Shown here one piece after another: positions 5,406 through 63,532 of a stretch of DNA of 64,000 nucleotides (positions within the stretch are counted from its first letter, which is position 1; the number at the start of each line of letters is the position of its first letter). Under the pieces are notes generated by a model. That model was not told the DNA's origin, did not search any database, and was given only the letters and a program-made list of their open reading frames with translations. This DNA comes from Erwinia pyri (GTDB taxonomy: Bacteria; Pseudomonadota; Gammaproteobacteria; Enterobacterales; Enterobacteriaceae): positions 4,092,001 to 4,156,000 of the forward strand of contig NZ_CP132353.1 of the NCBI RefSeq assembly GCF_030758455.1, read 5' to 3'. The translations under genes and the position numbers were made by a program.

Positions 5406-6056
5406 TTACGCTTTGTCAGAATAAGCGGCAGTATGAAAATCGATCTCCCACTTCAGCACTTTGCCGTAGAGCTCAGAGAGGGCAAACTTATCTTCCTCGC
5501 TCATTTCTGCTGCGCAGTGGTCCAGCTCTGCTTTCAGCCAGCTCGCCTGCTGATAGAACTCCTCTTCTGCATGCATCTCCACCCAGCGACGAACATCCAC
5601 ATCGCTCTGCATTTGCAGACTGGCGCGTTTACACCAGTGGTAGTACATCCATTCCGCCCCAAACATCAGCGTGACGATCTCCGCATAGCTGCCGCGCTGT
5701 GCCACATTCAGCATGCCCTCGCGGAAACGCCGGACGCCCGGCAGGTTATCAGGATAGCTCTCAGGATTGATCCCACGCTTCGCCAGCACCGTCTCAAACC
5801 ACGCAATCTGCGTATCGACCAGCGCATTCAGTACGCCGATAAGCCAACGCTGCTGGCGGATATCGGGTGCTTTACTTACCCCCAGCGCAAAGATAGCGAT
5901 GGCGGTAGCGACAAAATTCCCCTCAAACACCAGATAGCGGTTAAACACCTCTGCTGGCAGGCAATCCTGTTCTGTCTCGCAGACAAAGCGATGCTGCTGC
6001 ATCGCCTGCCAGCTCACCTGATGCTCACGCAACAGACGATCGCTGAACGCTTCCAT
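5406..6056 (-). CDS. TenA/THI-4 family protein without the classical cysteine
   Basis: All-helical TenA-like protein of 216 residues. Known members hydrolyse thiamine or salvage aminopyrimidine breakdown products; the family fold also includes PqqC. The usual segment C-x-W-x-Y-Y appears here as GAEWMYYHW, so Ala replaces the nucleophilic Cys and a Glu follows it. This points to the TenA_E-like branch or another chemistry rather than thiaminase II. Its ATG lies immediately after the TAG of the upstream BtpA-family gene (stop 6057-6059, start 6056), so the two are translationally coupled. No thiamine-synthesis genes are nearby, so a role in the sugar-conjugate pathway is inferred. Function is unassigned. 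Confidence 0.8.
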   Translation of the reverse strand: MEAFSDRLLREHQVSWQAMQQHRFVCETEQDCLPAEVFNRYLVFEGNFVATAIAIFALGVSKAPDIRQQRWLIGVLNALVDTQIAWFETVLAKRGINPESYPDNLPGVRRFREGMLNVAQRGSYAEIVTLMFGAEWMYYHWCKRASLQMQSDVDVRRWVEMHAEEEFYQQASWLKAELDHCAAEMSEEDKFALSELYGKVLKWEIDFHTAAYSDKA

Positions 6057-6929: not shown

Positions 6930-7790
6930 ATGCGTGTTTATGTCACCGGTAATATCACCGTCGATGAAACCTGGGCAATATCAGATATTCCCAAAAAAGG
7001 CTCATCCATTCATGGCAATAAAATCTCACAAGATATCGGAGGAAAAGGGGCGAATCAGGCTATATTAATTGCCCGCTGCGGAATAGAGACAACGCTCATT
7101 GCCGCCGTGGGAAATGACAGTAATGGCAGCTGGATCAGAGAGCAAATACACGCTGAACCGTTACGCCTGTTGCCTGAAAAGTTATTCCCCTGTCACAGTG
7201 ATACCTCAATTATTTTCAATAGCGAAGATGGCGATAATGCCATCGTGACCACCACCGTTGCGGCTGACTCTTTGAGCCTGGCAGAGATTACGCAGGCACT
7301 AAACGGCGCACAGCCTGGCGATGTTTTACTGCAGCAGGGCAATTTCTCCGTGGAGAAAACCCGTAGCCTGTTCGAGCTGGCTAAAGCAAAGGGCATGATC
7401 GCCATCTTCAATCCGTCGCCCGTAAAACCTGAGTTCGCCCAGCTCTGGCCGCTGGTCGATATTGCGGTACTCAACGAGCATGAGGCTGACTTACTGAAGC
7501 CCACGGACGTAAACACGTTAGTGATCACTCACGGTTCCCAGGGCGCTTCGCTTAAAACCCCGGATAACCACCAGTTTTGTGCCGCAACGCCCGCGCAGGC
7601 TGTTGATACCACCGGCGCTGGCGACACTTTTCTGGCGGTGATGCTCGCCTCCGCCCTGCGCCGCCAGAGTGAGATAGACGAGTTAGCACTTACTCACGCC
7701 AGTAAAGCGGCGGCAATTACCGTCAGCCGCCCGGGTACCTACAGCGCTTTCCCCAACACCGCTGAACTCAACGCGCTGCTGGAAAGCTGA
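6930..7790 (+). CDS. PfkB family carbohydrate kinase
   Basis: Ribokinase-fold sugar or nucleoside kinase, 286 residues. Seen: N-terminal TGNITVDE, the PfkB glycine motif GGKGANQA (37-44), the conserved NEHEAD segment (182-187), and the ATP/anion-hole motif DTTGAGD at 226-232 with Asp232 as the expected catalytic base. AAGGA 6 bases before the ATG supports the start. Neighbours (ribose-type importer, LacI regulator, BtpA barrel) suggest it phosphorylates the imported sugar. The exact sugar cannot be read. It ends at a stem-loop shared with the convergent binding-protein gene. Confidence 0.92.
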   Translation: MRVYVTGNITVDETWAISDIPKKGSSIHGNKISQDIGGKGANQAILIARCGIETTLIAAVGNDSNGSWIREQIHAEPLRLLPEKLFPCHSDTSIIFNSEDGDNAIVTTTVAADSLSLAEITQALNGAQPGDVLLQQGNFSVEKTRSLFELAKAKGMIAIFNPSPVKPEFAQLWPLVDIAVLNEHEADLLKPTDVNTLVITHGSQGASLKTPDNHQFCAATPAQAVDTTGAGDTFLAVMLASALRRQSEIDELALTHASKAAAITVSRPGTYSAFPNTAELNALLES

Positions 7791-19399: not shown

Positions 19400-19486
19400 G
19401 GTGCAGATCTCCATTAATTGGTTGGGTCAGGCTTGCGCTCTCTTTACCGGCAGCGCACTACTTCTTTTACTTCATCGCAGGACTGC

Positions 19487-23932: not shown

Positions 23933-24244
23933 GATACGGAATAAACTTAAACCATTGAATTTATTGATAACAGTAAAAAGGAGCGCGGTATTAAGTGGTT
24001 AAAAAAATCACTTATTGGTCAGTAATTAACTACGCGCTGATTATGCGCTATTACCGCCACTCTGCTAGTCAGATCGGCGCCTCCAACCTTTTCCCGATGC
24101 TTGTCCTTATCGCCCTGCCAGGCCCGGTGTTAACCAAACGGCTACACAAACCGTTACCTTAAGAGCAACACCTTTCTGCGGCGCCTGGTACTGAATTTGC
24201 ATCCCATCATTAAGTAAATGGTTGTTTCGCATCAGGGGTTCTCA

Positions 24245-25132
24245 GTGAATTTAAATACTTATAAATATTTCAATGAAGTAGCCGCCGCAGGATCGATCCG
24301 CCGTGCAGCCGATCGGTTACACGTTGCACCATCGGCTATCAGCCGCCAGATCGCCTTATTAGAACACAGTCTGGGTATCATGCTGATTGAACGCAGCAAT
24401 ACCGGAATTCAGTTAACGCCTGCGGGCATGATGCTTGAACGCTATACCCGAAAAATGGTTCGGGATCTGGACCGCATTCATGAAGCTATCAAAAATCTGA
24501 AAGGGCTGCGCCAGGGAGAGGTAAAAATCTGGGTGATCGAGGCAGTGGTTCAGGCGGTTCTGCCGCGCATTATGACTGAATTCAACGAAATTTATCCCGC
24601 CATCAAATTTTCCATTAACACTGAATCTTCAGACCGCACCATTGAAGCCATTATCAATGATGAAATTGATATTGGCATTGTATTTAACCTGGGCAATCGC
24701 CCCAGTGTTGAAGTTATTAAGCAGTGTCCTGCTCCCGTTCAGTGTCTGGTGTCGCCGGGGCATCCACTCGCCCACCATCACTCCGTAAGTCTGGAAGAGA
24801 TCTGCTCCTGGCCCATAGCGCTACCTGTTTCCAGCTTCGGCCTGCGACAGACGTTCGACAAAGTGACCCGCGCCCAGCATCTGGTACCGCAATCCATTGT
24901 GAATACCAACAACCTTGAACTCACTAAGGCGATGGCCATTGCGGGCCGTACCCTCACCATCGGTCCTGAACTGATCGCGACCAAGGAAATTGAACACAAT
25001 TTGCTTCGTGCCATTCCCATTGATAACGATGCGATGCGTGCGGCCACGATCGAGATCTGTGTGCATCGTGACCGCTCGCTCTCATTTGCCGCGCATCACT
25101 TCCTCAAGCTGGTCTGCCGGGAATTCAGTTAG
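24245..25132 (+). CDS. LysR family transcriptional regulator
   Basis: 295-residue LysR-type regulator. The HTH is FNEVAAAGSIRRAADRLHVA followed by PSAISRQIALLE; the effector domain follows from about residue 90. I chose the GTG at 24245 (MNLNTYKYFNEVA) because AGGGG lies 6 bases upstream and LysR proteins usually start about 5 residues before this helix; an in-frame ATG at 24218 exists. It lies 157 bases upstream of, and parallel to, the RutA-like operon, so it is the likely activator of that operon with the pathway substrate or intermediate as co-inducer. Confidence 0.92.
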   Translation: MNLNTYKYFNEVAAAGSIRRAADRLHVAPSAISRQIALLEHSLGIMLIERSNTGIQLTPAGMMLERYTRKMVRDLDRIHEAIKNLKGLRQGEVKIWVIEAVVQAVLPRIMTEFNEIYPAIKFSINTESSDRTIEAIINDEIDIGIVFNLGNRPSVEVIKQCPAPVQCLVSPGHPLAHHHSVSLEEICSWPIALPVSSFGLRQTFDKVTRAQHLVPQSIVNTNNLELTKAMAIAGRTLTIGPELIATKEIEHNLLRAIPIDNDAMRAATIEICVHRDRSLSFAAHHFLKLVCREFS

Positions 25133-25289: not shown

Positions 25290-26096
25290 ATGCCGAACGT
25301 CATGACTAACGGGATAAACACGCATTATGAAATGTGTGGATCGGGTCCGGCCCTGATCTTTGTCTCCGGGCTGGGCGGCACGGCCGCCTACTGGAAACCG
25401 CAGCTTGAAGCCTTCAGCAAACGCTTCACGGTCATCACCTATGACCAGCGTGGCGCGGGCACCTCCGATCATCCTGAAGGTCCTTACAGCATCGAAACGC
25501 TGGTGGACGACCTGCAATCGCTGATTAGGACGCTGAAGCTGGCGCGTCCGCTGCTGGTTGGACACTCGACGGGTGGCGCAATCGGTCAACACCTTGCTGC
25601 CCGCGATCCCGATCTGCTGGCAGGGATGGTGCTGTACGCCAGCTGGGCTAAATCAGACAGGCACTTTAACTGGTGTTTCCGCATGCGCCGCGCTCTGCTG
25701 GTTGGCAGCCCGCTGGAAGAGTATGTCCACGGCAGCGCGCTGTTTCTCTATCCGCCTGAGCATGTGAATACGCATGCGGAGGTGCTGTCGCCGGCTCTGC
25801 TCGCTTCTGTCGCCAGCTTCCCACAGCGCGAGATCATCCTGAGCCGCATTGACGCCATTATGGATCACGACGCCACCGCCGTGCTGGCCGCCATTCAGAC
25901 ACCCACGCTGGTGATCTGTGCACAGGACGACATTCTGACGCCGCCTTATCAGTCACGGCTGCTGGCGGAAGCCATCCCGAATGCGCAACTGGAAATCGTG
26001 CCCCGGGGCGGGCACAGCTTTTCAGAGACTGAAACGGTTCTGTTCAACAAAATTACGTTCGACTTCCTGGTGGGCGTCCGTCAGCTAACAAATTGA
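25290..26096 (+). CDS. alpha/beta hydrolase, RutD-like
   Basis: 268-residue hydrolase closest in pattern to RutD, which speeds aminoacrylate hydrolysis in uracil breakdown: shared segments are VSGLGGTAAYWKPQL, VITYDQRGAGTSD, CFRMRRALLVGS and FLYPPEH. Unlike E. coli RutD, where I recall GHALG at the elbow, this one has a canonical nucleophile Ser93 in GHSTGG, with Asp213/Asp214 and His242 completing a triad. It may therefore be a true ester or amide hydrolase. First gene of the operon; AGAGGA precedes the ATG and the RutA-like gene follows 15 bases after the stop. Confidence 0.88.
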   Translation: MPNVMTNGINTHYEMCGSGPALIFVSGLGGTAAYWKPQLEAFSKRFTVITYDQRGAGTSDHPEGPYSIETLVDDLQSLIRTLKLARPLLVGHSTGGAIGQHLAARDPDLLAGMVLYASWAKSDRHFNWCFRMRRALLVGSPLEEYVHGSALFLYPPEHVNTHAEVLSPALLASVASFPQREIILSRIDAIMDHDATAVLAAIQTPTLVICAQDDILTPPYQSRLLAEAIPNAQLEIVPRGGHSFSETETVLFNKITFDFLVGVRQLTN

Positions 26097-26111
26097 TCTA
26101 AGAGGTTTCTT

Positions 26112-27233
26112 ATGTCTGGTAATGACAATTGTAACGTTGAGTTTGGTGTATTTCTTCCGGTCGGCAATGGCGGCTGGATCACCTCAACCACCAGTCCGCA
26201 GCTTCCGGCGACCTACGACTACAACAAAGAGGTCACGATCCTGGCCGAGCAGTTGGGGTTCGATTTCGCCCTGTCGATGGCGAAGTGGCGTGGCTACGGC
26301 GGCCCTTCCCGTCACTGGGATGTCACGCTGGAAAGTCTGACCACCATGGCGGGTCTGGCTGAAGCCACCAGCCGCATCGGCGTCTGGGGCACCGTTCATA
26401 CCATGGTGTTCCACCCGGCAGTCGTCGCCAAAATGACCGCTGTGCTCGATCAGATCTCCAAAGGGCGCTTCGGACTGAATATTGTTTCGGGCTCGAACCC
26501 CACCGATCAGGGTCAGATGGGGCTGTGGATGGACCTGGATCATGCTGAGCGCTACGAGCTGGCGGCGGAATGGCTGACCGTGTTAAAGCGTCTCTGGACG
26601 GAAGATCGTGTCGACCATCAGGGCAAGCATTATCAGCTGACGGACTGCATGTCTAACCCCAAACCCGCCTCACCGCCGCCGATTATCTGTGCGGGCGCCT
26701 CCGACCGCGGTTTCCTGTTTACCATGGAGCACTGCACCGGCAGCTTTATGCTGGGCTCTGACCATGACGACTTCATCAAAACTGGCCTGCGCGCTAAAGA
26801 GCTGGCTGCACAACAGGGCAAGCCGGATTTCAAAACTTACGGGCTGTTCACCATTGTGCCTGGTGCTACTGATGCGGAAGCTCAGGAGCGCGTGAAGCTG
26901 TTCGATTCGGGGGTTGACACCATCGCGCTGGATAACCAGACCCGCGAATACTCCGGCGACAAGAGTTTTAAGCAGAACACCATGGCTCAGCGGTTCGTCT
27001 CGCAAGGCGAGCAGCGCAACTCCATGACGCGTGCGGCGCTGGTAGGCTCCCCGGAAACCATCGGCAACAAGCTGGCAGCAATCGTTAAGGGCGCGCAGCT
27101 TGATGGCGTAACGGTAATTGTACCGGATTTCATTGATGATCTGCGCATCGTGGGCACGGAAGTACTGGAAATACTGGAGCTAAACGGCGTTAACACCAAC
27201 GCCCGAGCGTATCAGAAGTCGGTAAAGAGCTGA
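26112..27233 (+). CDS. RutA-like flavin-dependent monooxygenase
   Basis: Luciferase-like FMNH2-dependent monooxygenase of 373 residues, similar over its whole length to RutA, which opens the uracil ring using a flavin-N5-peroxide. Shared segments: FGVFLPVGNGGWITST, FDFALSMAKWRGYGG, LESLTTMAGLA, ISKGRFGLNIVSG, DCMSNPKP and ICAGASDRG. By alignment Thr94 and Asn123 match RutA Thr105 and Asn134, recalled as oxygen-activating residues, so ring-opening chemistry is plausible. The region after residue 210 differs strongly, so the substrate may not be uracil. Reduced FMN would come from the RutF-like reductase at 33388. SD AAGAGG. Annotating it simply as rutA would be an over-call. Confidence 0.85.
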   Translation: MSGNDNCNVEFGVFLPVGNGGWITSTTSPQLPATYDYNKEVTILAEQLGFDFALSMAKWRGYGGPSRHWDVTLESLTTMAGLAEATSRIGVWGTVHTMVFHPAVVAKMTAVLDQISKGRFGLNIVSGSNPTDQGQMGLWMDLDHAERYELAAEWLTVLKRLWTEDRVDHQGKHYQLTDCMSNPKPASPPPIICAGASDRGFLFTMEHCTGSFMLGSDHDDFIKTGLRAKELAAQQGKPDFKTYGLFTIVPGATDAEAQERVKLFDSGVDTIALDNQTREYSGDKSFKQNTMAQRFVSQGEQRNSMTRAALVGSPETIGNKLAAIVKGAQLDGVTVIVPDFIDDLRIVGTEVLEILELNGVNTNARAYQKSVKS

Positions 27234-27325
27234 TCTGTCGTAACCTTCAGGCTGAGAACGGCGTGTCCGCCTCAGCCCCATTATGAGTCACCTTCCCCGC
27301 TTCGCGGATTGCCAGGAGTCGAGCT

Positions 27326-28291
27326 ATGAAAATGAAAATGATGTTAGCTTTTGCGGTTTCCGCTGCCATGGGTTGTGCTTCCGTTACTTACGCGGATGAG
27401 AGTAAACCGCGCGTGGCTGCCTTGTTTACTCAGACCGTGACGCAGGGCTCATGGGATATGGCGGGCTATGCGGCGTTCAGGTCGATGGCGACTAAAGAGG
27501 GCTTTACCCCCAGCTATCTGGAACACACCACCTATGAGTCCGCGCCTTCAGTGTTGCGCCAGCTGGCCTCTGATGGTGTAAAGCTGATTATTGCCCACTC
27601 CTCCGGCTATTCGGCGGCAATCAAAGAAGTGGCCCCTTCCTTCCCCAACACGCAGTTCGTGCTCTACTCCTATGAAAGCTCCACCAACAACCTGCCAAAC
27701 TACTCGGCGTGGTCGGTTGACTGGGATGAATACGGCTTTGTGCTGGGCGTGCTGGCGGCAACGGCCAGTAAAACCGGCCATATTGCAGTGATCAGCGGCG
27801 AACCGATCCCTTCTGCAGAGCGTACCGTGCAGTTCATCAAAAAAGGCGCGGCTTACGCCAATCCCAAAGTGGTGGTGGACTCTGCCTATGTAGGCTCCTT
27901 TACTGATGTTGCCCGCGCGAAAGAGATTGCTACCGGCGCTATCGCTCGCGGCGCGGATTTTGTCATTCCTTCTGCAGATACTGCCGATGCGGGCATTCAG
28001 CAGGCAGCGGATGAAGAAGGCGTGCTGACGATTGGCTCTTACACCGATCAAGCCAAATCCTTTCCCAACTCTGTGATGACCTCCACGGTGATGAACTTTG
28101 ATAAATCCTATGCGGATATCGGTAAACACTGCGCTGACCATCAGCTCGGCAACCGTATTGTGACCGAAAATTTAGCCACTAAGGGCTGGACGCTCGCTAA
28201 ACCTTTTGCCCATGTCGACAAAGAGGTTGAGGAGAAAGTGTTCAAGGTTATTGATGACCTTAAGGCCGGCAAAATCAAGATTGAGGAGTAA
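27326..28291 (+). CDS. BMP/PnrA family substrate-binding protein
   Basis: Periplasmic binding protein of the basic-membrane-protein (PnrA/Med) family, 321 residues, with a signal peptide ending near SVTYADES; an AMGC stretch at 14-17 is only a poor lipobox. Family members with this ATPase/permease set bind purine nucleosides, purines, riboflavin or related heterocycles. Seen: VAALFTQTVTQGSWDMAGYAAF, GVKLIIAHSSGYSAAIKEVA, GADFVIPSADTADAGI. AGGAG lies 9 bases before the ATG. The ATPase gene starts 4 bases after the stop. Its link to a ring-opening oxygenase suggests a nitrogen heterocycle as ligand. Confidence 0.92.
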   Translation: MKMKMMLAFAVSAAMGCASVTYADESKPRVAALFTQTVTQGSWDMAGYAAFRSMATKEGFTPSYLEHTTYESAPSVLRQLASDGVKLIIAHSSGYSAAIKEVAPSFPNTQFVLYSYESSTNNLPNYSAWSVDWDEYGFVLGVLAATASKTGHIAVISGEPIPSAERTVQFIKKGAAYANPKVVVDSAYVGSFTDVARAKEIATGAIARGADFVIPSADTADAGIQQAADEEGVLTIGSYTDQAKSFPNSVMTSTVMNFDKSYADIGKHCADHQLGNRIVTENLATKGWTLAKPFAHVDKEVEEKVFKVIDDLKAGKIKIEE

Positions 28292-28295
28292 CTCC

Positions 28296-29804
28296 ATGTC
28301 CAGCCCCGTAATCGAACTCGATCATGTTTCAAAGCGCTATCCCAACGGGTTTGTCGCGCTGGAAAAAGTGAGTCTCGCCTTTTATCCCGGGGAGATCCAC
28401 GCGCTGTTGGGCGAAAACGGGGCGGGAAAATCGACGTTGATGAATATTCTGTACGGCGTGCATGAAGCCACTGAAGGCGGCGTGTTGATGAATGGCCGCC
28501 AGGTGATCCACCGTCGGCCAGCTGACGCCATCGCTAACGGCATCGGTATGGTGCATCAGCATTTCAAGCTGGTCGCGCCTTTCACCGTCGCGGAGAACCT
28601 GGCGCTGGTCGCCAGAGGTGAACGCAAAAAAACCTTCCGTCGCCCTGCCAACATTCGCGCTTTTATGCAGGCATACGGCGTTGACCTTGATCCGCACACT
28701 GTCGTGGGGCGCCTGCCGCTGGCTTTGCAGCAGCGCGTGGAGATCCTGAAAGCGCTGGTAAATGACACCCGGGTACTGCTGCTGGATGAACCTTCGACCA
28801 TTCTGACGCCGGGCGAGATAGCCGAGCTCTATACCACCGTGCGCCGGATTTGTGAAAAAGGTACGGCAGTGGCGGTTGTTACTCATAACGTAGATGAAGT
28901 GCTCGCCAACGCAGACCGCTACACTATTTTACGGCGAGGCAAAACCAACGGCACCGGGCTGACCCGGGGCTGTACACCCGATGAGTTGGTGGAAAAAATT
29001 GTCGGGCGTGTTGTCGTCAGCGGCACGCGTCTCGGTTCATTACGTCAGGCTGGTCCGGAACAAATGCGGTTGAGCAACGTGAATTTGCGCCCGGCAACCG
29101 GTTCGCCAGGACTGCACGCTTTCACTCTGTCGCTACATGCACGGGAAGTCATTGGCATTGCAGGTGTGGAAGGCAACGGGCAGACCGAGCTCTTTGAGCT
29201 GCTGGCAGGGCAACGGCAGCCGCACAGCGGCGACATTACCCGTAGCGGCCCGAATATCACGGTGGCGCTGGTACCACAGGACCGGCATCACGAAGGGCTT
29301 TCGCTGGACTTACCGGTTTCCCACAACCTGCTCTACCCCAAAATTATGCAAGGCGGATACCGTCGTCTGGGATTACTTAACCATGCCGCCATTGCGGAGC
29401 GCGCCAGAGAGATGATTACCGAGTCCGATATCCGGACGCATTCTCACGGCAGCCTGGCCCGCTCTCTTTCAGGGGGGAATCAGCAGAAGATCGTGGTGGC
29501 GAGAGCCATGGCGGAAGCGGCCTCCATTATCGTTGTTTATCAGCCCACGCGGGGTCTGGATATGGCTGCGGCAGAAGCGGTATTAATCCGTCTGGCCGAT
29601 GCGGCTGATGCTGGTACCACCGTGCTGATTATCTCCTCAAATATCGAAGAACTTCTTCGGGTCTCCGACCGCATCGTGGTGATGAACGGCGGCAGGATCG
29701 CTGGGGAAGTAATGGGGGAGCAAATGTCCTTTGAAAGAATCGGCACGCTGATGACTTCCGGTCGGGGCGCGCAGTCGGCTGCAGCAGGAGCAGAACATGT
29801 CTGA
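28296..29804 (+). CDS. ABC transporter ATPase, two fused domains (BMP-type importer)
   Basis: 502-residue ATPase with two nucleotide-binding domains, as in nucleoside/purine importers of the YufO/NupO class. Domain 1: Walker A GENGAGKST, Q-loop MVHQHF, Walker B VLLLDEP, and a degenerate signature LPLALQQRVEI. Domain 2: degenerate Walker A GVEGNGQTE, signature LSGGNQQKIVVARA and QPTRGLD. The asymmetry (canonical Walker A in one half, canonical signature in the other) is usual for this class and leaves one full site. GAGGAG 7 bases before the ATG at 28296 sets the start. The stop overlaps the next ATG by 8 bases. Confidence 0.93.
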   Translation: MSSPVIELDHVSKRYPNGFVALEKVSLAFYPGEIHALLGENGAGKSTLMNILYGVHEATEGGVLMNGRQVIHRRPADAIANGIGMVHQHFKLVAPFTVAENLALVARGERKKTFRRPANIRAFMQAYGVDLDPHTVVGRLPLALQQRVEILKALVNDTRVLLLDEPSTILTPGEIAELYTTVRRICEKGTAVAVVTHNVDEVLANADRYTILRRGKTNGTGLTRGCTPDELVEKIVGRVVVSGTRLGSLRQAGPEQMRLSNVNLRPATGSPGLHAFTLSLHAREVIGIAGVEGNGQTELFELLAGQRQPHSGDITRSGPNITVALVPQDRHHEGLSLDLPVSHNLLYPKIMQGGYRRLGLLNHAAIAERAREMITESDIRTHSHGSLARSLSGGNQQKIVVARAMAEAASIIVVYQPTRGLDMAAAEAVLIRLADAADAGTTVLIISSNIEELLRVSDRIVVMNGGRIAGEVMGEQMSFERIGTLMTSGRGAQSAAAGAEHV

Positions 29805-30894
29805 ATCGGTAAAACCTCTGGCTGATACCGGCGCCTCGCTGCGCCGGGTACTGACCAAATTAAGCGGCTCCCGCTCGTTATGGGTCACCCTGAGCGCTTT
29901 TATCGGCTCGTTAATCCTCGGCCTGGCCCTGATCGCCGCGATGGGCGTACCGCTGATTTCCGCCATGCGGGTCGCCTTTGAAGGCGCTTTTGGCAACATC
30001 CGCAGCCTGTCCGACACACTGGTATTTATGACGCCGCGCCTGCTGGTGGCGCTGGGTGCGCTAATCGCCATCCGCGGCGGTATGTTTAACCTGGGTGGAG
30101 AGGGCCAGCTACAGATGGGTGCTATCGGCGCCATGCTGCCTTTTCTCGCTTTTGGCGACATCGGCCCGGCATTGCTGCCATGTGCCATCCTCAGCGGCGC
30201 AATCTGCGGGGCGCTGTGGGGGCTAATCCCGGCCGTGCTGAAAGTATGGCGCGGCATTGATGAAATCATCGTGACGCTGATGATGAATTTTATCGCCATC
30301 TATACCCTGAAATATCTGGTTCAGGGGCCGATGCGCCCGGCGGGTTCTAATTTCAATATGTCTGCCCAGCTGCCGCCAGACGGCGTTTTCCAGCAGGTCA
30401 TTGAGGGTACGCGACTGCACTCCGGCGTGTTTCTGGCATTACTGATTGCGCTCGCTGTTTGGGTATTACTGAAACACAGCGCTTTCGGGCTGAAGCTCCG
30501 CGCCAGCGGTCAGAGTCCCCGTTTTGTGCAGTTTCAGGGAGAGTCTGCGGCAAAAAACGTGCTTTCCAGCATGGCGCTTTCGGGCGCCGTCAGCGGGCTG
30601 GCAGGCGCTTTTGAAGTGCTGGGCGTGCAGTACCGTCTGATTGACGGTTTTTCGTCAGGGCTGGGTTTTGAAGGGCTTGCCGTCTCTTTCCTGGCTGGTC
30701 TCGAACCTTTTGGGGCCATTATCGTCTCGATTTATTTTGGCGCCATTAACAGCGCCGCACTGGCACTGCAAAGCACCTTTTCAATTCCAGCTGCGTTAGC
30801 GGATGTGCTTGCCGGTATGCCGATTTTATTTCTGGCAGTAATGAGCGGCGTCATGCTGGTTAAAGGGAGGCCTGTATGGAATTCAACACTGTAA
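29797..30894 (+). CDS. ABC transporter permease 1 (BMP-type importer)
   Basis: 365-residue inner-membrane permease (BPD_transp_2, YufP/NupP class) with about 9-10 hydrophobic segments. Typical motifs: ALGALIAIRGGMFNLGGEGQ, GIDEIIVTLMMNFIAIY, and GLGFEGLAVSFLAGLEPFG. The start overlaps the ATPase stop and its end overlaps the second permease by 19 bases, so all three are translationally coupled. Confidence 0.93.
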   Translation: MSESVKPLADTGASLRRVLTKLSGSRSLWVTLSAFIGSLILGLALIAAMGVPLISAMRVAFEGAFGNIRSLSDTLVFMTPRLLVALGALIAIRGGMFNLGGEGQLQMGAIGAMLPFLAFGDIGPALLPCAILSGAICGALWGLIPAVLKVWRGIDEIIVTLMMNFIAIYTLKYLVQGPMRPAGSNFNMSAQLPPDGVFQQVIEGTRLHSGVFLALLIALAVWVLLKHSAFGLKLRASGQSPRFVQFQGESAAKNVLSSMALSGAVSGLAGAFEVLGVQYRLIDGFSSGLGFEGLAVSFLAGLEPFGAIIVSIYFGAINSAALALQSTFSIPAALADVLAGMPILFLAVMSGVMLVKGRPVWNSTL

Positions 30895-31817
30895 CGCTGG
30901 CGCTGTTTTTTGCCGGAGGCCTCAGGCTTTGTGTGCCGGTTCTGCTGGCGGCGCTGGGGGAAACCGTTTCAGAACGGGCCGGCGTTTTCACCATCGGGCT
31001 GGAAGGCGTGATGCTGTTTGGCGCGTCGTCATCAGCGGTAGGGCTGGCGGTATCCGGCTCGCCGGTTCTGGCGCTGCTGGCCGGAGTACTTGGCGGCGTG
31101 CTGGCCGCGCTGGTTCTGGCGCTGGGCACGGTATTCGCCCGCGCTAACCAGATAGTGATGGGTATAGGCTTCAATTTGTTCGCGATTGGCGCAACCTCAT
31201 TGATCCGTCAAATCTGGCTTGCTGGCGCACCCGCAGCAGGATCGATGCGCTCTGTTTCTATGTTGAAGCTGCCGTGGTTATCCGATATTCCCATCGCCGG
31301 GCGCGCGCTCTTCTCGCAAAGTCCGGTGCTCTATCTGGCGGTGGTGGTCGCCTTTTCGCTCTGGTGTCTGTTCCGCTATACACGCGCCGGTCTGTTGCTG
31401 CGGGCCGTGGGCGAGAACGCGCTGGCCGCTGATGCTGCGGGCCACGCCGTACTGCGCATCCGTTTCAGCGCCACCCTGTTTACGGGAGTGATGGCGGGAT
31501 TAGGCGGAGCCTATCTCTGCATCATCGCCTCCGGCGGCACTTTCGTGGACAACATGACGGCAGGACGAGGCTATCTGGCCATTGCCGTCACCATTTTTGC
31601 ACGCTGGATGCCGTTGCGGGTACTGATTGTAGCCGTCTTGCTGGGTCTGCTCGAAGCCCTGCAATTCCAGGGGCAGTATCTGGGCATTGATATCGCACCT
31701 TCCCTGCTGATGGCAATGCCGTTTGTGGTCGCGCTGGTCGCCTGGGTGATGATGGGCCGGGCAGGCGCAGCGCCGACAGATTTAGGCCGTCCTTTCCTGC
31801 GGGGCTCAGGGCGGTAG
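30876..31817 (+). CDS. ABC transporter permease 2 (BMP-type importer)
   Basis: 313-residue second permease (YufQ/NupQ class). Motifs: LGETVSERAGVFTIGLEGVM, ANQIVMGIGFNLFAIGATS, GRGYLAIAVTIFARW. About 8 hydrophobic segments. It forms the heterodimeric channel with the gene upstream, which it overlaps by 19 bases. The ATG is preceded by AGGGAGG inside that gene. Confidence 0.93.
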   Translation: MEFNTVTLALFFAGGLRLCVPVLLAALGETVSERAGVFTIGLEGVMLFGASSSAVGLAVSGSPVLALLAGVLGGVLAALVLALGTVFARANQIVMGIGFNLFAIGATSLIRQIWLAGAPAAGSMRSVSMLKLPWLSDIPIAGRALFSQSPVLYLAVVVAFSLWCLFRYTRAGLLLRAVGENALAADAAGHAVLRIRFSATLFTGVMAGLGGAYLCIIASGGTFVDNMTAGRGYLAIAVTIFARWMPLRVLIVAVLLGLLEALQFQGQYLGIDIAPSLLMAMPFVVALVAWVMMGRAGAAPTDLGRPFLRGSGR

Positions 31818-31860
31818 TGATTCTAAAACAGGGGGTTGCGGCCCCATTCAGGAGAAATAT

Positions 31861-32262
31861 ATGAACCAGGCAATCAACCCGGAGGGGTGGATCATTGGTA
31901 AAACGGCGACCGGCCTTAATCACCTTAACTGGGGTGTGAAAGCGGGAAACCACGTGTCGGTCGCCGGCATGCTGTCTACCGATCCTGTTGACGGCAGCAT
32001 CGTAGGCGTTGGGGATATTGAAGTACAGACACGCCGTGTGCTCGACAGTATCAAAGTGGTGCTGGAGTCCGCTGGCAGCAGTATGGACCATGTTGTGATG
32101 AACCAGATCTTCCTGCGCAATCTTGAGGATTACCATCAATTCAATGAGATCTACGTCAGCTACTTCCCGCAGATCCTCCCCGCACGCTTCTGCGTGAAGC
32201 TGGAGATGGTGCGACCGGAGTTCCTGGTTGAAATCGCCGCGACAGCCATTATTCCAGCCTGA
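31861..32262 (+). CDS. RidA/RutC family deaminase
   Basis: 133-residue YjgF/YER057c/UK114 trimeric protein. RidA members hydrolyse reactive enamines/imines; RutC deaminates aminoacrylate in the Rut pathway. The catalytic Arg (Arg109 in LPARFCVKL) and the C-terminal Glu124 (FLVEIAA) are present, so it should be active. AGGAG precedes the ATG. Its place between the importer and the reductase genes suggests it removes ammonia from an enamine intermediate made after ring opening. Confidence 0.92.
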   Translation: MNQAINPEGWIIGKTATGLNHLNWGVKAGNHVSVAGMLSTDPVDGSIVGVGDIEVQTRRVLDSIKVVLESAGSSMDHVVMNQIFLRNLEDYHQFNEIYVSYFPQILPARFCVKLEMVRPEFLVEIAATAIIPA

Positions 32263-32327
32263 TCGGAGAGATCATCAGGGAGCTGGCTAACTGTCAGCTC
32301 TCTGACCAGCAACAAGAGGGTTATGCT

Positions 32328-33335
32328 ATGCAATACCGTTATCTGGGTCGCAGCGGGTTAAAAGTGTCAGAAATCTGCCTGGGAACCATGATGTTCGGCG
32401 GTGCAACTGACGAGACCGCTTCACGCAACATTACTGCTGCAGCAGGTGATGCTGGGGTTAATTTCATCGATACCGCCGACATGTACAACAAAGGCGAATC
32501 AGAGCGGGTTGTCGGGCGAGCAATTGCCGCAGAGCGCGACCGCTGGGTACTGGCAACCAAAGTGGGCAACCCGATGGGTGACGCGCCGAATCAGCGCGGG
32601 ATGTCACGCAAATGGATTAGGGAAGCGGTTCACGGTTCGCTGACGCGGCTGGGCAGCGACTATATCGATATCCTGTATATGCATAAAGCGGATTTCGCTG
32701 CGCCGCTGGAAGAGATGGTACTCGCTTTCGCCGATCTCATTCGTGAAGGCAAGATCGGCTATTTTGCGGTGTCGAATTTTAAGGCGTGGCGGCTGGCAGA
32801 GACGGTCCGACTGGCTCGTGAAGCGGGCATTACCGGACCCGTGGCGACACAGCCGCTTTATAATCTGGCGAACCGTGAGGCAGAAGTTGAGATCCTGCCT
32901 TCTGCGGCTTACTTTGGGGCCGGTACCGTCTGCTACAGCCCGCTGGCGCGCGGCATTCTCACCGGAAAATATCGCCAGGATGTAGCCCCTGACAGTGACA
33001 GCCGCGCCGGACGCGCCGATCCGCGCATGATGGAAGCGGAATGGCGGCCAGAATCGTTAAAAGCTGCCAGCGAGCTGGCAGCTTATGCTGAGAGTACCGG
33101 ACGTAAACCGGCGCATCTGGCGCAAATGTGGGTGATGCGCAACAGCCTTGTCACCAGCACGCTGATTGGACCGCGAACCTTTGAACAGTGGCAGGATGGC
33201 ATTGCGGCGCTCGACTGTTCCTGGAGTGTGGAAGATGAAGCCTTTTGCGATCGGCTGGTTTCACCAGGCAAAGGCACCAGCCTGGGTCCGGTCGATCCAC
33301 ACCATCCGATTGAAGGCCGCATAACCCGCTGGTAA
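32328..33335 (+). CDS. aldo/keto reductase
   Basis: NADPH-dependent TIM-barrel oxidoreductase of 335 residues. The tetrad is visible: Asp48 and Tyr53 (FIDTADMYN), Lys78 (LATKVG) and His119 (YMHKAD). The coenzyme region is CYSPLARGILTGKY and later TSTLIGPRTFEQ. The known rut operons that I recall contain no such gene. It probably reduces an aldehyde or ketone arising in this pathway, alongside or in place of RutE. A 52-base gap to the next gene. Confidence 0.93.
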   Translation: MQYRYLGRSGLKVSEICLGTMMFGGATDETASRNITAAAGDAGVNFIDTADMYNKGESERVVGRAIAAERDRWVLATKVGNPMGDAPNQRGMSRKWIREAVHGSLTRLGSDYIDILYMHKADFAAPLEEMVLAFADLIREGKIGYFAVSNFKAWRLAETVRLAREAGITGPVATQPLYNLANREAEVEILPSAAYFGAGTVCYSPLARGILTGKYRQDVAPDSDSRAGRADPRMMEAEWRPESLKAASELAAYAESTGRKPAHLAQMWVMRNSLVTSTLIGPRTFEQWQDGIAALDCSWSVEDEAFCDRLVSPGKGTSLGPVDPHHPIEGRITRW

Positions 33336-33387
33336 TAAACAACTATTTGCCTGGCCAATACTGGCCATTACTGATACAGGTCCGTTA

Positions 33388-33945
33388 ATGACAGAATCTA
33401 CCTCCCCTGCCGCAACGAAAATGAACGCTTTAGCAGAAGATGTTGCAAAGATTGCAGAAGCCTATCGTGGCGGGATGCGCCTGCTTCCGGCAGGCGTCTG
33501 CCTGATCACCGCCAGCCGTGACAATGAGCCGGGTGGCATGATTGCCACCGCTGTGACCTCTGTCAGCGCAGAGCCGCCTACGCTGCTGGTGTGCATTAAC
33601 CGTAGCGCCTCCATGTTTGCAATGATTGAGGAAACGGGCCGCTTCTGCGTCAACGTATTGACCACAGACGCGCTGCCGCTGGTTGAAATATTCAGTCGTT
33701 CCGACCGCCGGGCCGAGCGTTTTCAGACCGGAGAGTGGAGCACATCAGCCCTGGGTACGCCGGTTTGTGCAGCAGCAATGGTCTCTTTTGAATGCCGTCT
33801 GGCAAAGGTTGTAGACTGGCACAGTCACGGCATTTTTCTTGGTGAAGTAACCAGCGTTTTGCACCCCAGCGCCGGTGCCGCACCGTTACTGTATATGGAT
33901 CGTCAGTTCCATGCGCTCAGTGAGCTGACGGCTGCAAAAAGCTAA
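33388..33945 (+). CDS. flavin reductase, RutF-like
   Basis: 185-residue NAD(P)H:FMN reductase of the split-barrel flavin_reduct family. Seen: MRLLPAGVCLITASRDNEPG, GMIATAVTSVSAEPPTLLVC, INRSASMF, GRFCVNVLT. It should supply FMNH2 to the RutA-like oxygenase. It is about 20 residues longer at the N-terminus than E. coli RutF (164). A weak AGG precedes the ATG. Confidence 0.9.
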   Translation: MTESTSPAATKMNALAEDVAKIAEAYRGGMRLLPAGVCLITASRDNEPGGMIATAVTSVSAEPPTLLVCINRSASMFAMIEETGRFCVNVLTTDALPLVEIFSRSDRRAERFQTGEWSTSALGTPVCAAAMVSFECRLAKVVDWHSHGIFLGEVTSVLHPSAGAAPLLYMDRQFHALSELTAAKS

Positions 33946-33970
33946 TTCAACTTAACCAAAAGGAGTCCGG

Positions 33971-34552
33971 ATGCTTTCTGACGACGCAATGAATGACCTG
34001 TTTCTTGAAGCACGTTCCCACAATGGCTGGCTGGACAAAGCAGTGACTGACGAGCAGCTTGCTACCCTGTATGCTCTGACGCGAATGGGACCCACTTCCG
34101 CCAATTGCAGCCCAGCCCGATTCGTGTTTGTGCGCACGCAGGAGGGCAAAGAGAAGCTCAGGCCAACGCTCTCTTCCGGCAACCTGCAGAAGACCATGAG
34201 CGCGCCCGTCACGGTGATTGTGGCGTATGACAAAACCTTTTATGAGCAACTGCCAGCGCTGTTCCCTCATGCTGATGCCAGAAGCTGGTTCACCTCCAGC
34301 CCGGCCTTTGCCGAGGAGACAGCCTTGCGTAACAGCTCACTGCAGGCCGCGTATCTGATTATGGCCGCACGTAGTATGGGTCTGGACACCGGGCCGATGT
34401 CTGGCTTTGACCGGAACAAGCTGGATGAGGCTTTTTTTCAGGGCACCACGCTGACCACCAATCTGTTGATCAACCTCGGCTATGGCGATGCTGAAAAGCT
34501 TTATGGTCGTCTGCCAAGATTGTCGCTGGAACAGGCCTGCTCTTTTGAGTGA
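33971..34552 (+). CDS. rutE: malonic semialdehyde reductase, RutE-like nitroreductase fold
   Basis: 193-residue NADPH-dependent nitroreductase-family protein, very close to E. coli RutE: shared stretches include [53 protein letters not shown] and [12 protein letters not shown]. RutE turns malonic semialdehyde into 3-hydroxypropionate. This strong match implies that the pathway ends in malonic semialdehyde or a close C3 product. AGGAG lies 7 bases before the ATG. Last gene of the operon. Confidence 0.85.
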
Positions 34553-34580: not shown

Positions 34581-34606
34581 TAAAAAATGCCGCTTCAGAG
34601 CGGCAT
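34581..34606. terminator. terminator between convergent rutE-like and RidA genes
   Basis: An 8-bp stem (34587-34594 with 34599-34606) with a TCAG loop; on the minus strand a run of six U follows. The stop codon of the minus-strand RidA gene (34595-34597) lies inside the hairpin loop. It is placed to stop the plus-strand operon too, though without a T run on that side. Confidence 0.85.
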
Positions 34607-34981
34607 CATCACAATAATTTCAATCTCCAGCATTAATTCAGGCTCGGCCAGCGCTGAGATCTGAAAAAGCGTACTGGCGGGCAGCTCCAGCCCGGCAAAA
34701 AACCGCTCACGTACTGGATGAATTTCCGCCACCAGAGCGAGATCGGTGACGTAAGTTGTGGTTTTGACTATCGCATCCCGGCTCACGCCCAGCCCTGCCA
34801 GCAGCCTGTCAATATTATCGTAAACCTGTTCAACCTGCTGTTTCATGTCGCCGATGCCGACAACGTTACCCTGTTCATCCCAGGCTACCTGACCAGTAGG
34901 AAAAACAGGTATACCTGGCCTGATTTTGATGTGGTTATAGTAGCTGCGGGCTTTTAACCCTGCGGGATTTATAATGTTCAT
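34595..34981 (-). CDS. RidA-like protein lacking the catalytic Arg
   Basis: 128-residue YjgF/RidA-fold protein, convergent with the Rut-like operon. Where active RidA proteins have PAR(T/S), this has PASTLFQ, so Ser103 replaces the key Arg; the C-terminal Glu region (LMLEIEIIVM) remains. It may lack imine-deaminase activity or have another role. The ATG at 34981 (MNIINPAGLKARSYYN) has GAGG 6 bases upstream; the frame is open for 17 more codons. Whether it belongs to the same pathway is inferred from position only. Confidence 0.88.
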   Translation of the reverse strand: MNIINPAGLKARSYYNHIKIRPGIPVFPTGQVAWDEQGNVVGIGDMKQQVEQVYDNIDRLLAGLGVSRDAIVKTTTYVTDLALVAEIHPVRERFFAGLELPASTLFQISALAEPELMLEIEIIVMMPL

Positions 34982-35093
34982 TGCGCGCCTCGTCATGCTC
35001 TGTCCAGCTTGCAGACTAGCATTCTCAGGCAACTGGTGAAACGCGCATTCCGGCTACGCCGCGTTGCCAGTTTAGCAACGCGGCCAGGGCTCG

Positions 35094-36241: not shown

Positions 36242-37483
36242 TCAGAAGGTGAAGTTCAGCTGAGCCACTGCACCCCAGGTATTGTCATCGCCTTTCATCC
36301 CGGCCAGATCCAGGTGCACCTTGTTAAACGGTGACAGACCAAAACCGGCGGTATAAACGTTGGTATCGTTAGACTTCATATCCGCACGATAACCGGCACG
36401 CAGCTGCAACCAGCTAAGCAGACGATATTCGGCACCCACGCCGGCATACTGACTCTCTTCCTGCGTTTTAAAACGCTTGGTTGGAGTCACATCCACATCC
36501 AGCGCGGCGGTGAGGCGTTCGGTATGGAAGGCGACGCCGGGGGTAACGAGAGGGCTAATCTGGTAAGTATCTTTGTAGCCATTCACCTCTTTCGTATCCA
36601 GATCGCGGGAGATCAGGTTCTGCGCGCTCAGGCCCAGCGTCCAGTTATCCCCTACATCCGTTGCCACGCCCGCATCAAGGTTGAAGCCGGTATCGTCGTT
36701 TTTATAACGGCCCTTCTTGAAGTCTGATTTATCGTAGTTATAAACCGAGGCGCTGTAGTTATAGAGGTAGGTTTTTTGCAGCTTAGGCGTCACGCCTACC
36801 GAGACTGGATGTCCGGCAATGGTAAATTCATGCGCAACGGCAATGCCGTAATCATAGACAATCGCGCCGCGGCCTAATCCGGCAGAGGTCAGCTTGTCCT
36901 GATCGCCAGGCAACGGGAAAACGGTGCCATCAGCTACACCCTGCAAATAATCGATATCGCTTTGGGTCACATCTGCACTGACATGTGCGGTGCCGTACGC
37001 TTTAGTCACAAAGGCAAACGGCAGTACTTCATTAGGAACAGTGACCGCAACAGCCGCTCCTGCCGTGCCCGACGCCTGATTACCTTTGATCCCGCGTAGC
37101 TGACTGGCTAAATCTCCCGCTGCTGCCTGAACTCTTGGATAATCGGCAAAGCTGGTGATGCTATCCGCCAGATCCTGATAACGGTCCACGCTATCGGTTA
37201 AGTCATCAACCTTATCAATCAGCTTGTTTTTATCCGTGACCTGCAGACCCGCTGCCGGAAGGATAATGCTTACCGTGTCATCCGGCTGCGCTTTGGTCAT
37301 CAACGCCGGGTTTGCCAGTACGGCGGTGCCGTAAGTGGAAGAGGCAACACCTGTACCGCCCATTGCATCGTTGCGCGCATCGTAATAGTTACCGGCGGCC
37401 AGTGCGCTGAGGGGAGCCAAAAATAAAATGGGGAACGCTGCAGGGCGGGAAAAGCTGTTCAACTTACGGATTAATTTTGCCAT
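36242..37483 (-). CDS. outer-membrane beta-barrel, TraF (F-plasmid type)/FadL-like family
   Basis: 413-residue predicted outer-membrane protein. A signal peptide ends near APLSALAAGN. The early motif DARNDAMGGTGVASSTYGTAVLANPAL is typical of the 'conjugal transfer protein TraF' Pfam group of FadL-like barrels; it also carries many alternating strands and ends with a terminal Phe (QLNFTF), the outer-membrane assembly signal. Despite the family name there are no conjugation genes here, so a DNA-transfer role is unlikely. It may be a hydrophobic-compound channel (inference). It sits between dusA and zur, which are close together in E. coli. Confidence 0.8.
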   Translation of the reverse strand: MAKLIRKLNSFSRPAAFPILFLAPLSALAAGNYYDARNDAMGGTGVASSTYGTAVLANPALMTKAQPDDTVSIILPAAGLQVTDKNKLIDKVDDLTDSVDRYQDLADSITSFADYPRVQAAAGDLASQLRGIKGNQASGTAGAAVAVTVPNEVLPFAFVTKAYGTAHVSADVTQSDIDYLQGVADGTVFPLPGDQDKLTSAGLGRGAIVYDYGIAVAHEFTIAGHPVSVGVTPKLQKTYLYNYSASVYNYDKSDFKKGRYKNDDTGFNLDAGVATDVGDNWTLGLSAQNLISRDLDTKEVNGYKDTYQISPLVTPGVAFHTERLTAALDVDVTPTKRFKTQEESQYAGVGAEYRLLSWLQLRAGYRADMKSNDTNVYTAGFGLSPFNKVHLDLAGMKGDDNTWGAVAQLNFTF

Positions 37484-63147: not shown

Positions 63148-63203
63148 CAGCGGCAGCAGAAAACGCTATTTGTAGCCCGCTAGTTGCGCATCTGATGCGC
63201 AAG

Positions 63204-63441
63204 CCAGAAGAGGCGCGTCGCCCAGGCAGTGTGTTGGAGGAGCCGAATCCACAGAAAACACATCAGGGGGAGCGACGCCGAGGTACAATCCACGCGGCGT
63301 GGGGCGTATCGACCGCAGGGGCTGAATCCTCTGGGTTGTCACCAGGATCGTGCGACAAAAACGGTCCGCACCTGATTACGGGTCCTGCAGCCTAAGCCGC
63401 TGCCGCACCCGTAACGGGTAGACAAGGTGGGGCGCTTCTGG
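63204..63441 (+). promoter_or_regulatory. lysine riboswitch (L box) of lysC
   Basis: Closure helix P1: CCAGAAG (63204-63210) with CTTCTGG (63435-63441). Between them lie the conserved AGAGGCGCG, GTGTTGGAGGAGCC and AGGGGCTGAATCCTCTGGG, with GTTGTCACC after it, as in the E. coli lysC leader. A hairpin (63184-63202) precedes it. Downstream, CGGGTAGAC near 63415 can pair with GTCTACCCC, a possible alternative helix reducing lysC expression when lysine is bound. The gap 63148-63532 holds nothing else. Confidence 0.95.
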
Positions 63442-63532
63442 GTGACTCGTAGTAATCCCCTTTTCTACGTCTACCCCGTTTTCGCTCTTCCCTTGTGCCA
63501 GGAATTTAATCAGACACGAGGTATGTCAACAC

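Follow-up and report, generated by a model that had tools for sequence, protein, structure and literature searches.

A RutA-like gene cassette of Erwinia pyri with a possible role in the breakdown of thiamin-derived pyrimidines

Gene content of the operon

We analyzed a 64,000-nucleotide stretch of the Erwinia pyri genome (contig NZ_CP132353.1, positions 4,092,001 to 4,156,000; hereafter the window), which contains an operon of ten genes at window positions 25290–34552 encoding a RutA-like flavin mononucleotide (FMN) monooxygenase, referred to here as RutA2, and an importer of the BMP family. An earlier note, made from the sequence alone, had described these genes as Rut-type oxidative ring-opening genes joined to an ATP-binding cassette (ABC) importer, and the open reading frame coordinates bear out its account of their order: all ten lie on the plus strand, with spacing from a 19-base overlap up to a 92-base gap. 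They encode a RutD-like alpha/beta hydrolase (25290–26096) with a complete Ser93-Asp214-His242 triad, RutA2 (26112–27233; approximately 35% identity to E. coli RutA), a BMP-family substrate-binding protein (PF02608; 27326–28291), the two-domain ABC ATPase of the importer (28296–29804; the start at 28296 was chosen, and an upstream TTG at 28206 is open too), ABC permease 1 (29797–30894) and permease 2 (30876–31817), a RutC-like Rid protein (31861–32262) in which Arg109 and Glu124 are kept, an aldo-keto reductase (PF00248; 32328–33335), a RutF-like flavin reductase (33388–33945), and a RutE malonic semialdehyde reductase (33971–34552). A LysR-family regulator found by family scans (24218–25132, plus strand) adjoins the operon and is co-directional with it. 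At the other end, on the minus strand, lies the gene of a second Rid-family protein, Rid2 (34595–35032), which stands directly behind RutA2 in many of its loci and had been overlooked.

The family labels given earlier hold as relationships. Four of the Rut-type proteins score below their equivalog cut-offs: RutA2 reaches about 274 bits in TIGR03612 (pyrimidine utilization protein A; cut-off 498.3), RutD 228.1 (238.5), RutC 103.9 (169.1), and RutF 131.1 (254.75). RutE, with 302.6 bits against 152, is the sole Rut family passing its cut-off in the operon and the sole RutE over the cut-off in the genome. All four importer parts pass their Pfam cut-offs (Bmp 137.5 bits against 24.1, ATPase 146.7, BPD_transp_2 permeases 151.8 and 109.6), in agreement with the earlier description of a complete importer with an adjacent LysR gene. 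The operon is flanked by qor and dusA; dnaB and zur lie farther out. Its base composition (56.2%, compared with 55.4–55.6% around it) gives no mark of foreign origin, and scans for promoters and terminators did not clearly exceed shuffled sequences.

Phylogeny, conserved residues and distribution of RutA2

A protein search with RutA2 returned 1003 relatives, the best 120 of which were listed, and an unrooted tree of 96 rows was built, for which treekit gave a long-branch warning near the canonical rows. RutA2 of the window falls inside a 57-row clade of Pseudomonadota, Actinomycetota, and Bacillota (support 93/81, unstarred). The canonical RutA rows, ten in number, group in a starred branch (100/100) nested in a starred 13-row branch (99/99), and RutA2 lies outside both; a further clade of 21 rows from Sphingomonadaceae, Hyphomonadaceae, Cohnella, and others is also starred (99/94). 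Judged by this phylogeny, which had been set beforehand as a test, RutA2 is separate from canonical RutA, with starred branches between them. The actinobacterial loci L042, L049, and L073 contain two RutA-like paralogues, 61–64% and 46–50% identical to the window protein, of which the second forms a clade of its own. RutA-like proteins of loci L056–L072, mostly from Sphingomonadaceae and Hyphomonadaceae, are 39–44% identical to the window protein; of the rut, thiamin, and BMP genes counted below, only a RutB-like gene, in L056 and L058, occurs near them.

Residues were compared in an alignment of 47 of the 57 clade rows, the 10 more distant rows being outside it, and literature RutA numbering was transferred by an offset of 19, deduced from the residues named there. 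L65, T105, N134, and V136 belong to the dioxygen pocket of RutA (PMC7662398), and Trp139 borders its substrate-side cavity (PMC10005588). The four pocket residues are kept in all 47 rows and F224 in 42 of them, with all five present in the window protein, which is consistent with the flavin-oxygen ring opening proposed in the earlier note. The substrate side is changed in 47 of 47 rows, with Trp139 replaced by Ser (Ser128 in the window protein), Leu70 by Trp, Ala107 by His, and Gln140 by Asn. An AlphaFold2 model of RutA2 (predicted local distance difference test score, pLDDT, 91.0) has E. coli RutA as its nearest structure, with a template modelling (TM) score of 0.83 and 34% identity.

The partner proteins carry changes of their own. 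The 15 canonical RutD sequences compared have Ala at the nucleophile position and thus no serine nucleophile, whereas Ser occupies it in all 30 RutA2-linked RutD-like sequences (27 with GHSTGG and 3 with GLSMGG; one is a fragment). The Arg of RutC is kept in 24 of 24 sequences (the window and 23 of 23 RutC of RutA2 loci), and Rid2 has Ser at that position in 34 of 34, including the window. E. coli RutC without Arg104 has no 3-aminoacrylate deaminase activity (PMC8113886), and the Ser in place of Arg makes it unlikely that Rid2 acts as an enamine deaminase of the usual kind.

The BMP protein model (pLDDT 89.9) is nearest to AtzT (TM score 0.84, 26% identity), followed by proteins that bind guanosine, thymidine, uridine, and adenosine. 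Guanine and 2-hydroxyatrazine are ligands of AtzT; guanine is sandwiched by Tyr45 and Trp194 and bonded to Glu165, Asn218, Asn220, Ser97, and the Phe98 backbone (PMC6834077). Read by hand, on the assumption that the paper number equals the chain number plus 5, Trp194 corresponds to Phe192, Ser97 to Ser92, Glu165 to Ser163, and Asn218 to Ser216 of the window protein. The aromatic face appears to be kept and some guanine contacts lost, which would fit a flat ring other than guanine as one possible ligand. The label of a vitamin B6 importer was considered and rejected, as the matches to NF047927–NF047930 all fall far below their cut-offs (111.7 of 400, 398.9 of 670, 146.3 of 400, and 213.1 of 465 bits).

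A scan of genome contigs with two peptide patterns yielded 59 RutA-like loci. In 12 of these, all from Enterobacterales or Pseudomonas, RutA2 is 90–94% identical to the window protein. RutD, RutA2, BMP, the ATPase, both permeases, and RutC recur at 71–97% protein identity in each of 12 Enterobacterales and Pseudomonas loci compared, so that the arrangement goes beyond chance. Among 60 relatives searched, RutA2 occurs in three (the own genome, G013, and G022), all of them among the 36 genomes of the same genus. When the search was widened to 398 Pseudomonadota genomes, scoring no more than four candidates in each, it gave a match at E 1e-100 in the own genome only and no new loci, which points to the rarity of RutA2. 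None of dnaB, qor, dusA, zur, and the gene at 36242–37483 was found in the flanks (at most approximately 10 kb) of 15 other loci, a rhizobial one and 14 of window type, with one genome contributing two of the 15; the cassette therefore seems to stand at different genomic places. The term hybrid operon used earlier does not fit these comparisons, by which the operon is a conserved cassette occurring sporadically in three phyla and not a stray hybrid of rut assembled in this genome. Its sporadic and plasmid-borne occurrence suggests horizontal spread between unrelated bacteria. The three plasmid loci (L089–L091) stand outside the tree, and RutA2 identities of 88.6, 76.9, and 60.5% place them with RutA2. 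The gene is split into shorter open pieces in L043 and L052 (Pantoea rodasii and Erwinia sp. S63), possibly through decay or faulty assembly. Host names tied to bark beetles occur among L020, L022, L025, and L026, and a common habitat is possible; Erwinia typographi, Pseudomonas typographi, P. bohemica, and Serratia sp. M24T3 include some that we take to be tree or pine-nematode isolates.

Gene neighbourhoods of RutA2 and canonical RutA

For neighbourhood counts, each open frame was assigned to its best query above a fixed bit threshold. The set of 37 RutA2 loci consists of 34 of the 59 (L020–L052 and L073) and the three plasmid loci, of which L090, judged by scores, nearly duplicates L034; the comparison sets are 21 loci of the other RutA-like clade (L053–L072 and L082) and 15 canonical loci. 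Three loci were counted apart (L074, L076, and L077, without deaminase, TenA, YlmB, BMP, or Rid2) and two were not counted (L075 and L078). Rid2 is the most constant partner of RutA2, present in 33 of the 37 loci, with scores of just 51–61 bits in L044, L045, L046, L051, and L091. It is followed by the RutD-like hydrolase (29), a LysR regulator of the window type and some flavin reductase (25 each), BMP and RutC-like proteins (23 each, RutC being below threshold in the other 14), and the aldo-keto reductase (18), while the RutE type occurs in four.

RutB, RutG, and RutR are each found in none of the 37 RutA2 loci versus all 15 canonical loci, and the window operon lacks them too, as had been noticed. 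A second RutA of the Erwinia pyri genome, with 716 bits in TIGR03612 and hence over the cut-off, lies at 2895776 of the main contig (L079) in a canonical set, RutR-RutA-RutB-RutC-RutD-RutF-RutG, in which the RutB (442.5 bits) stands beside its own RutA. This set has no RutE, which is present in the window operon and in 10 of the 15 canonical loci counted. Uracil use is thus served by a separate operon, and a different function is probable for the one in the window. The earlier note had named clustering of RutA2 inside canonical RutA, or a RutB elsewhere in the same regulon, as grounds for refuting its reading, and the sequence evidence gives neither. E. coli RutA cuts uracil at N3–C4 and RutB hydrolyses the resulting ureidoacrylate (PMC7662398, PMC8113886). 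Canonical RutA is carried by 14 of 18 RutA2 genomes and is missing from Pseudomonas bohemica, P. typographi, Pararhizobium polonicum, and Rhizobium daejeonense, and the same four have no RutB over the cut-off (best 106.3 of 377.95 bits), so that RutB supplied in trans is not a general requirement. A RutB acting in trans is weakened as a candidate by these genomes. The separate RutA2 clade, the coexisting rut operon, the lack of RutB in 37 of 37 loci, and the changed substrate side agree with the previous proposal that the substrate is probably a nitrogen heterocycle other than uracil.

Genes of thiamin-pyrimidine metabolism recur beside RutA2. An amidohydrolase of the ATZ/TRZ type, taken as a deaminase, occurs in 13 of 37 RutA2 loci, TenA and a ThiY-like protein in nine each, and YlmB in eight, versus none of the 36 control loci (Fisher values of 7e-5 for the deaminase, 0.002 for TenA, and 0.005 for YlmB, which ignore kinship). 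Matches to ThiX-like and ThiZ-like proteins were unspecific, appearing in three loci of the other clade as well, and were not relied on. The 15 canonical loci contain neither thiamin-type genes nor Rid2 or BMP; the 21 loci of the other clade have no deaminase, TenA, YlmB, BMP, or Rid2, with RutB-like genes in two and RutR-like genes in three. BMP and the deaminase occur together in seven loci, and six have the deaminase only. Taken by itself, the BMP importer is no evidence for the purine or nucleoside class read from it in the earlier note: in these seven loci it accompanies a thiamin-type deaminase. The relatives point to thiamin-derived 2-methylpyrimidines as a candidate substrate class, which had not been named before.

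Loci of Rhizobium, Acidisoma, Paracoccaceae, Paenibacillus, and Cohnella contain an NMT1/THI5-type binding protein, an SsuC-type permease, TenA, an M20 protein, and the ATZ/TRZ amidohydrolase, and eight of the 37 have all four of TenA, YlmB, ThiY, and the deaminase (L029, L034, L037, L038, L047, L051, L089, and L090). In the literature, TenA, YlmB, and ThiY serve salvage or uptake (PMC10470507). The M20 proteins of L034 and L089 score 730.1 and 721.9 bits in NF006370 (cut-off 412), whose NCBIfam name is acetylornithine deacetylase; we take them as YlmB because the Paracoccaceae plasmid record annotates this gene as an N-formyl-4-amino-5-aminomethyl-2-methylpyrimidine (FAMP) deformylase, an annotation of its depositors. 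The amidohydrolase passed no NCBIfam cut-off among the matches listed (best named N-ethylammeline chlorohydrolase, 374.7 of 609), and we infer its deaminase function. In Paenibacillus senegalimassiliensis (L051, 7951–16109), nine co-directional genes with gaps of at most 37 bases run in the order YlmB-TenA-RutA2-Rid2-FMN reductase-ThiZ-ThiX-ThiY-deaminase. The plasmid of Paracoccaceae strain La 6 (L089) bridges both arrangements: a window-type operon of LysR, RutD, RutA2 (88.6%), Rid2, BMP importer, RutC, and aldo-keto reductase lies beside the deaminase, TenA, the deformylase, and ThiYXZ-like genes, with thiaminase-2 and FAMP deformylase annotated by the depositors. Rhizobium sp. ACO-34A likewise carries both gene sets. 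No thiamin pyrophosphate (TPP) riboswitch at gathering score was found in 11 of the 13 deaminase-bearing loci (L041 and L090 were outside the scan), and the E. coli thiC region, as a positive control, gave one at 74.8 bits; the absence is what one would expect of a catabolic locus rather than one for vitamin supply.

The eight loci with neither BMP nor deaminase comprise two on short contigs (L033 and L048), two actinobacterial ones (L049 and L073), and four, from Pseudomonas, Variovorax, and Cupriavidus, with a Rieske oxygenase instead (L044, L045, L046, and L091); in L091 the oxygenase is accompanied by a PDR/VanB reductase and a formaldehyde dehydrogenase, a hint of a demethylation step. 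Riboflavin biosynthesis genes near RutA2 (ribB at 7195–7830 of L089; ribA and ribBA at 19419–21095 of L091) perhaps serve FMN supply.

TenA, YlmB, ThiY, and the deaminase are absent from the window operon. A search for the deaminase in 16 genomes (E. typographi twice, L020 and G013) gave at most 37% identity among the matches listed for 15 of them, and Sinirhodobacter alone reached 88%, in a match adjoining L039. Two TenA candidates of the window genome were rejected. A 179.1-bit Pfam match lies between genes that we take to be PqqB-like and PqqE-like, and is presumably PqqC. The TenA-like gene at 5406–6056 of the window (minus strand) is distant (68.9 bits in PF03070, 61.4 of 130 in TIGR04306), and its neighbours, namely BtpA/SgcQ-family, ribokinase-like, and ribose-type binding proteins, with a phosphotriesterase-like one farther off, form a separate sugar-type cluster. 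A lysine riboswitch (74.9 bits) lies at 63200–63445 of the window (plus strand).

Candidate pathway, alternatives and known systems

We estimate a probability of about one in two that the window operon is a cassette for the catabolism of 4-oxo-2-methylpyrimidines in the thiamin-pyrimidine class; we consider this substrate class likely for the deaminase-bearing loci. The BMP importer would take up an already deaminated pyrimidine such as 5-hydroxymethyl-2-methylpyrimidin-4-one, and RutA2, with reduced FMN and O2, may cleave its N3–C4 amide as RutA does with uracil. As C2 of this ring carries a methyl and no oxo group, the open product would be an N-acetimidoyl (amidine) 3-aminoacrylate and not ureidoacrylate; with no ureido group formed, RutB would have no substrate and would not be needed. 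The two-carbon amidine or acetyl unit may be removed by Rid2, together with the Ser-bearing RutD-like hydrolase in loci that have it, after which RutC would deaminate 3-aminoacrylate, and the aldo-keto reductase or RutE would reduce the semialdehyde. The previously proposed end near malonic semialdehyde could hold for loci with RutE (the window and four of the 37), but the aldo-keto reductase is the commoner of the two. In the relatives, an upstream branch of ThiY-like importer, YlmB, TenA, and ATZ/TRZ deaminase may feed FAMP, aminomethyl-hydroxymethylpyrimidine (aminomethyl-HMP), and HMP into the same oxopyrimidine by import, deformylation, TenA conversion, and deamination to a 4-oxo-2-methylpyrimidine, and of the two branches the window would retain just the one that the BMP importer supplies. 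More broadly, and slightly more tentatively, RutA2 may define an aerobic pathway for destruction of the vitamin B1 pyrimidine through a RutA paralogue without RutB, of which the window would be a pared-down, horizontally spread version with a BMP importer for the deaminated ring.

Several observations weigh against this reading. The window genome has no YlmB over the cut-off (best 66.6 of 412 bits), and its best match to the deaminase, at 32%, was not accepted as an orthologue, so that its own substrate is inferred via relatives alone. BMP occurs without the deaminase in 16 of 37 loci, and eight have neither. The RutD-like hydrolase is missing in eight of 37 loci, including five of the six with the deaminase only, one of these being the Paenibacillus run, while all six lack RutC and the aldo-keto reductase; the later steps hence cannot be uniform, and in these loci either Rid2 or other enzymes perform them or the products differ. 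It would be unusual for a serine hydrolase to act on an amidine, and the part given to Rid2 in later hydrolysis is a guess. The TenA scores of L034 and L089 (123.1 and 129.1 bits) are slightly below the cut-off of 130. The other RutA-like clade shares part of the substrate-side changes, where residue 139 is Ser or Ala in 21 of 21 and residue 107 is His in 20 of 21, so that these are no signature of the thiamin link alone. The RutA2 loci are akin to one another, and the Fisher values are thus not independent tests; the canonical loci, 13 of the window's genus together with the own genome and E. coli, form a narrow control.

Another nitrogen heterocycle or a xenobiotic, for instance a purine-derived ring, pyrazine, triazine, or pyridine, imported by the BMP system, is an unlikely candidate: AtzT is the nearest relative of the BMP protein, the linked amidohydrolase is of the ATZ/TRZ type, and the putative B6-importer models of NCBIfam are the best named match. 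However, the guanine ligands Glu165 and Asn218 of AtzT are both Ser in the window protein by the manual alignment, the B6 models reach only 111.7 of 400 and 398.9 of 670 bits, and the TenA (9/37) and YlmB (8/37) genes of related loci belong to thiamin metabolism. It is rather improbable that the operon provides a second pathway for ordinary pyrimidines (uracil, thymine, or 5-substituted uracils) in which a dedicated high-affinity importer works together with the RutB of the canonical operon. The genome does hold a canonical RutB, and homologues of RutC, RutE, and RutF are kept, but RutB is near RutA2 in none of the 37 loci, four of 18 RutA2 genomes have neither canonical RutA nor RutB over the cut-off, and RutA2 forms a separate clade with Trp139 replaced in every aligned row.

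Two further explanations stay within thiamin chemistry. Detoxification of thiamin antivitamins (pyrimidines of the bacimethrin or oxythiamin type), rather than nutrient use, would suit the Rieske oxygenase of four loci, and the PDR/VanB reductase and formaldehyde dehydrogenase of L091 fit O-demethylation; such antivitamins exist in nature (PMC12345177). We nevertheless regard it as quite improbable, since importers, reductases, and deaminases would fit nutrient use better and 33 of 37 loci lack the oxygenase. Still less probable is thiamin salvage for vitamin supply, with RutA2 merely travelling with the salvage genes: TenA, YlmB, and ThiY are indeed known from salvage or uptake (PMC10470507), but removal of the 4-amino group and ring opening would destroy the thiamin precursor, a TPP riboswitch is absent from all 11 scanned loci, and 16 loci have the BMP importer without the deaminase.

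If breakdown of thiamin-derived oxopyrimidines is correct, it would supply a missing step of the vitamin B1 cycle, in which bacteria consume the thiamin pyrimidine that salvage-dependent microbes need, and RutA-type amide cleavage would extend beyond uracil and thymine. Proteins named pyrimidine oxygenase would then gain a candidate substrate, and reading them as uracil users would probably be wrong. Our literature search, which left subscription journals mostly outside so that earlier publication is possible, found no RutA-like enzyme in thiamin catabolism.

The window cassette resembles E. coli rutABCDEFG in combining a RutA-type monooxygenase with a flavin reductase, a RutC-type Rid protein, a RutD-like protein, RutE, and the dioxygen-pocket residues. 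Unlike that system, it has no RutB, RutG, or RutR, its RutD-like protein has a catalytic Ser, its RutA2 stands outside canonical RutA, and it adds Rid2, the aldo-keto reductase, the BMP importer, and the LysR regulator. Bacillus reportedly salvages thiamin pyrimidines with ThiXYZ, YlmB, and TenA, a system said to have been described by Jenkins in 2007. The role of YlmB in this salvage is documented (PMC10470507), and genes of the same types surround RutA2 in Rhizobium, Acidisoma, Paracoccaceae, Paenibacillus, and Cohnella. In contrast to Bacillus, the RutA2-linked sets add the amidohydrolase and RutA2 and have no TPP riboswitch in the 11 loci scanned, and the window operon itself has none of ThiXYZ, YlmB, and TenA. 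The importer shares fold and family with AtzT and other BMP (PnrA-like) importers and differs from AtzT by its 26% identity and the loss of Glu165 and Asn218. The protein of structure 3kxp, which we take to be the alpha-(N-acetylaminomethylene)succinic acid hydrolase of vitamin B6 catabolism and to cleave an N-acetyl enamide, is likewise an alpha/beta hydrolase and would perform a step of the kind proposed for the RutD-like protein, but the latter scores 67.9 bits to 3kxp versus 132.4 to E. coli RutD.

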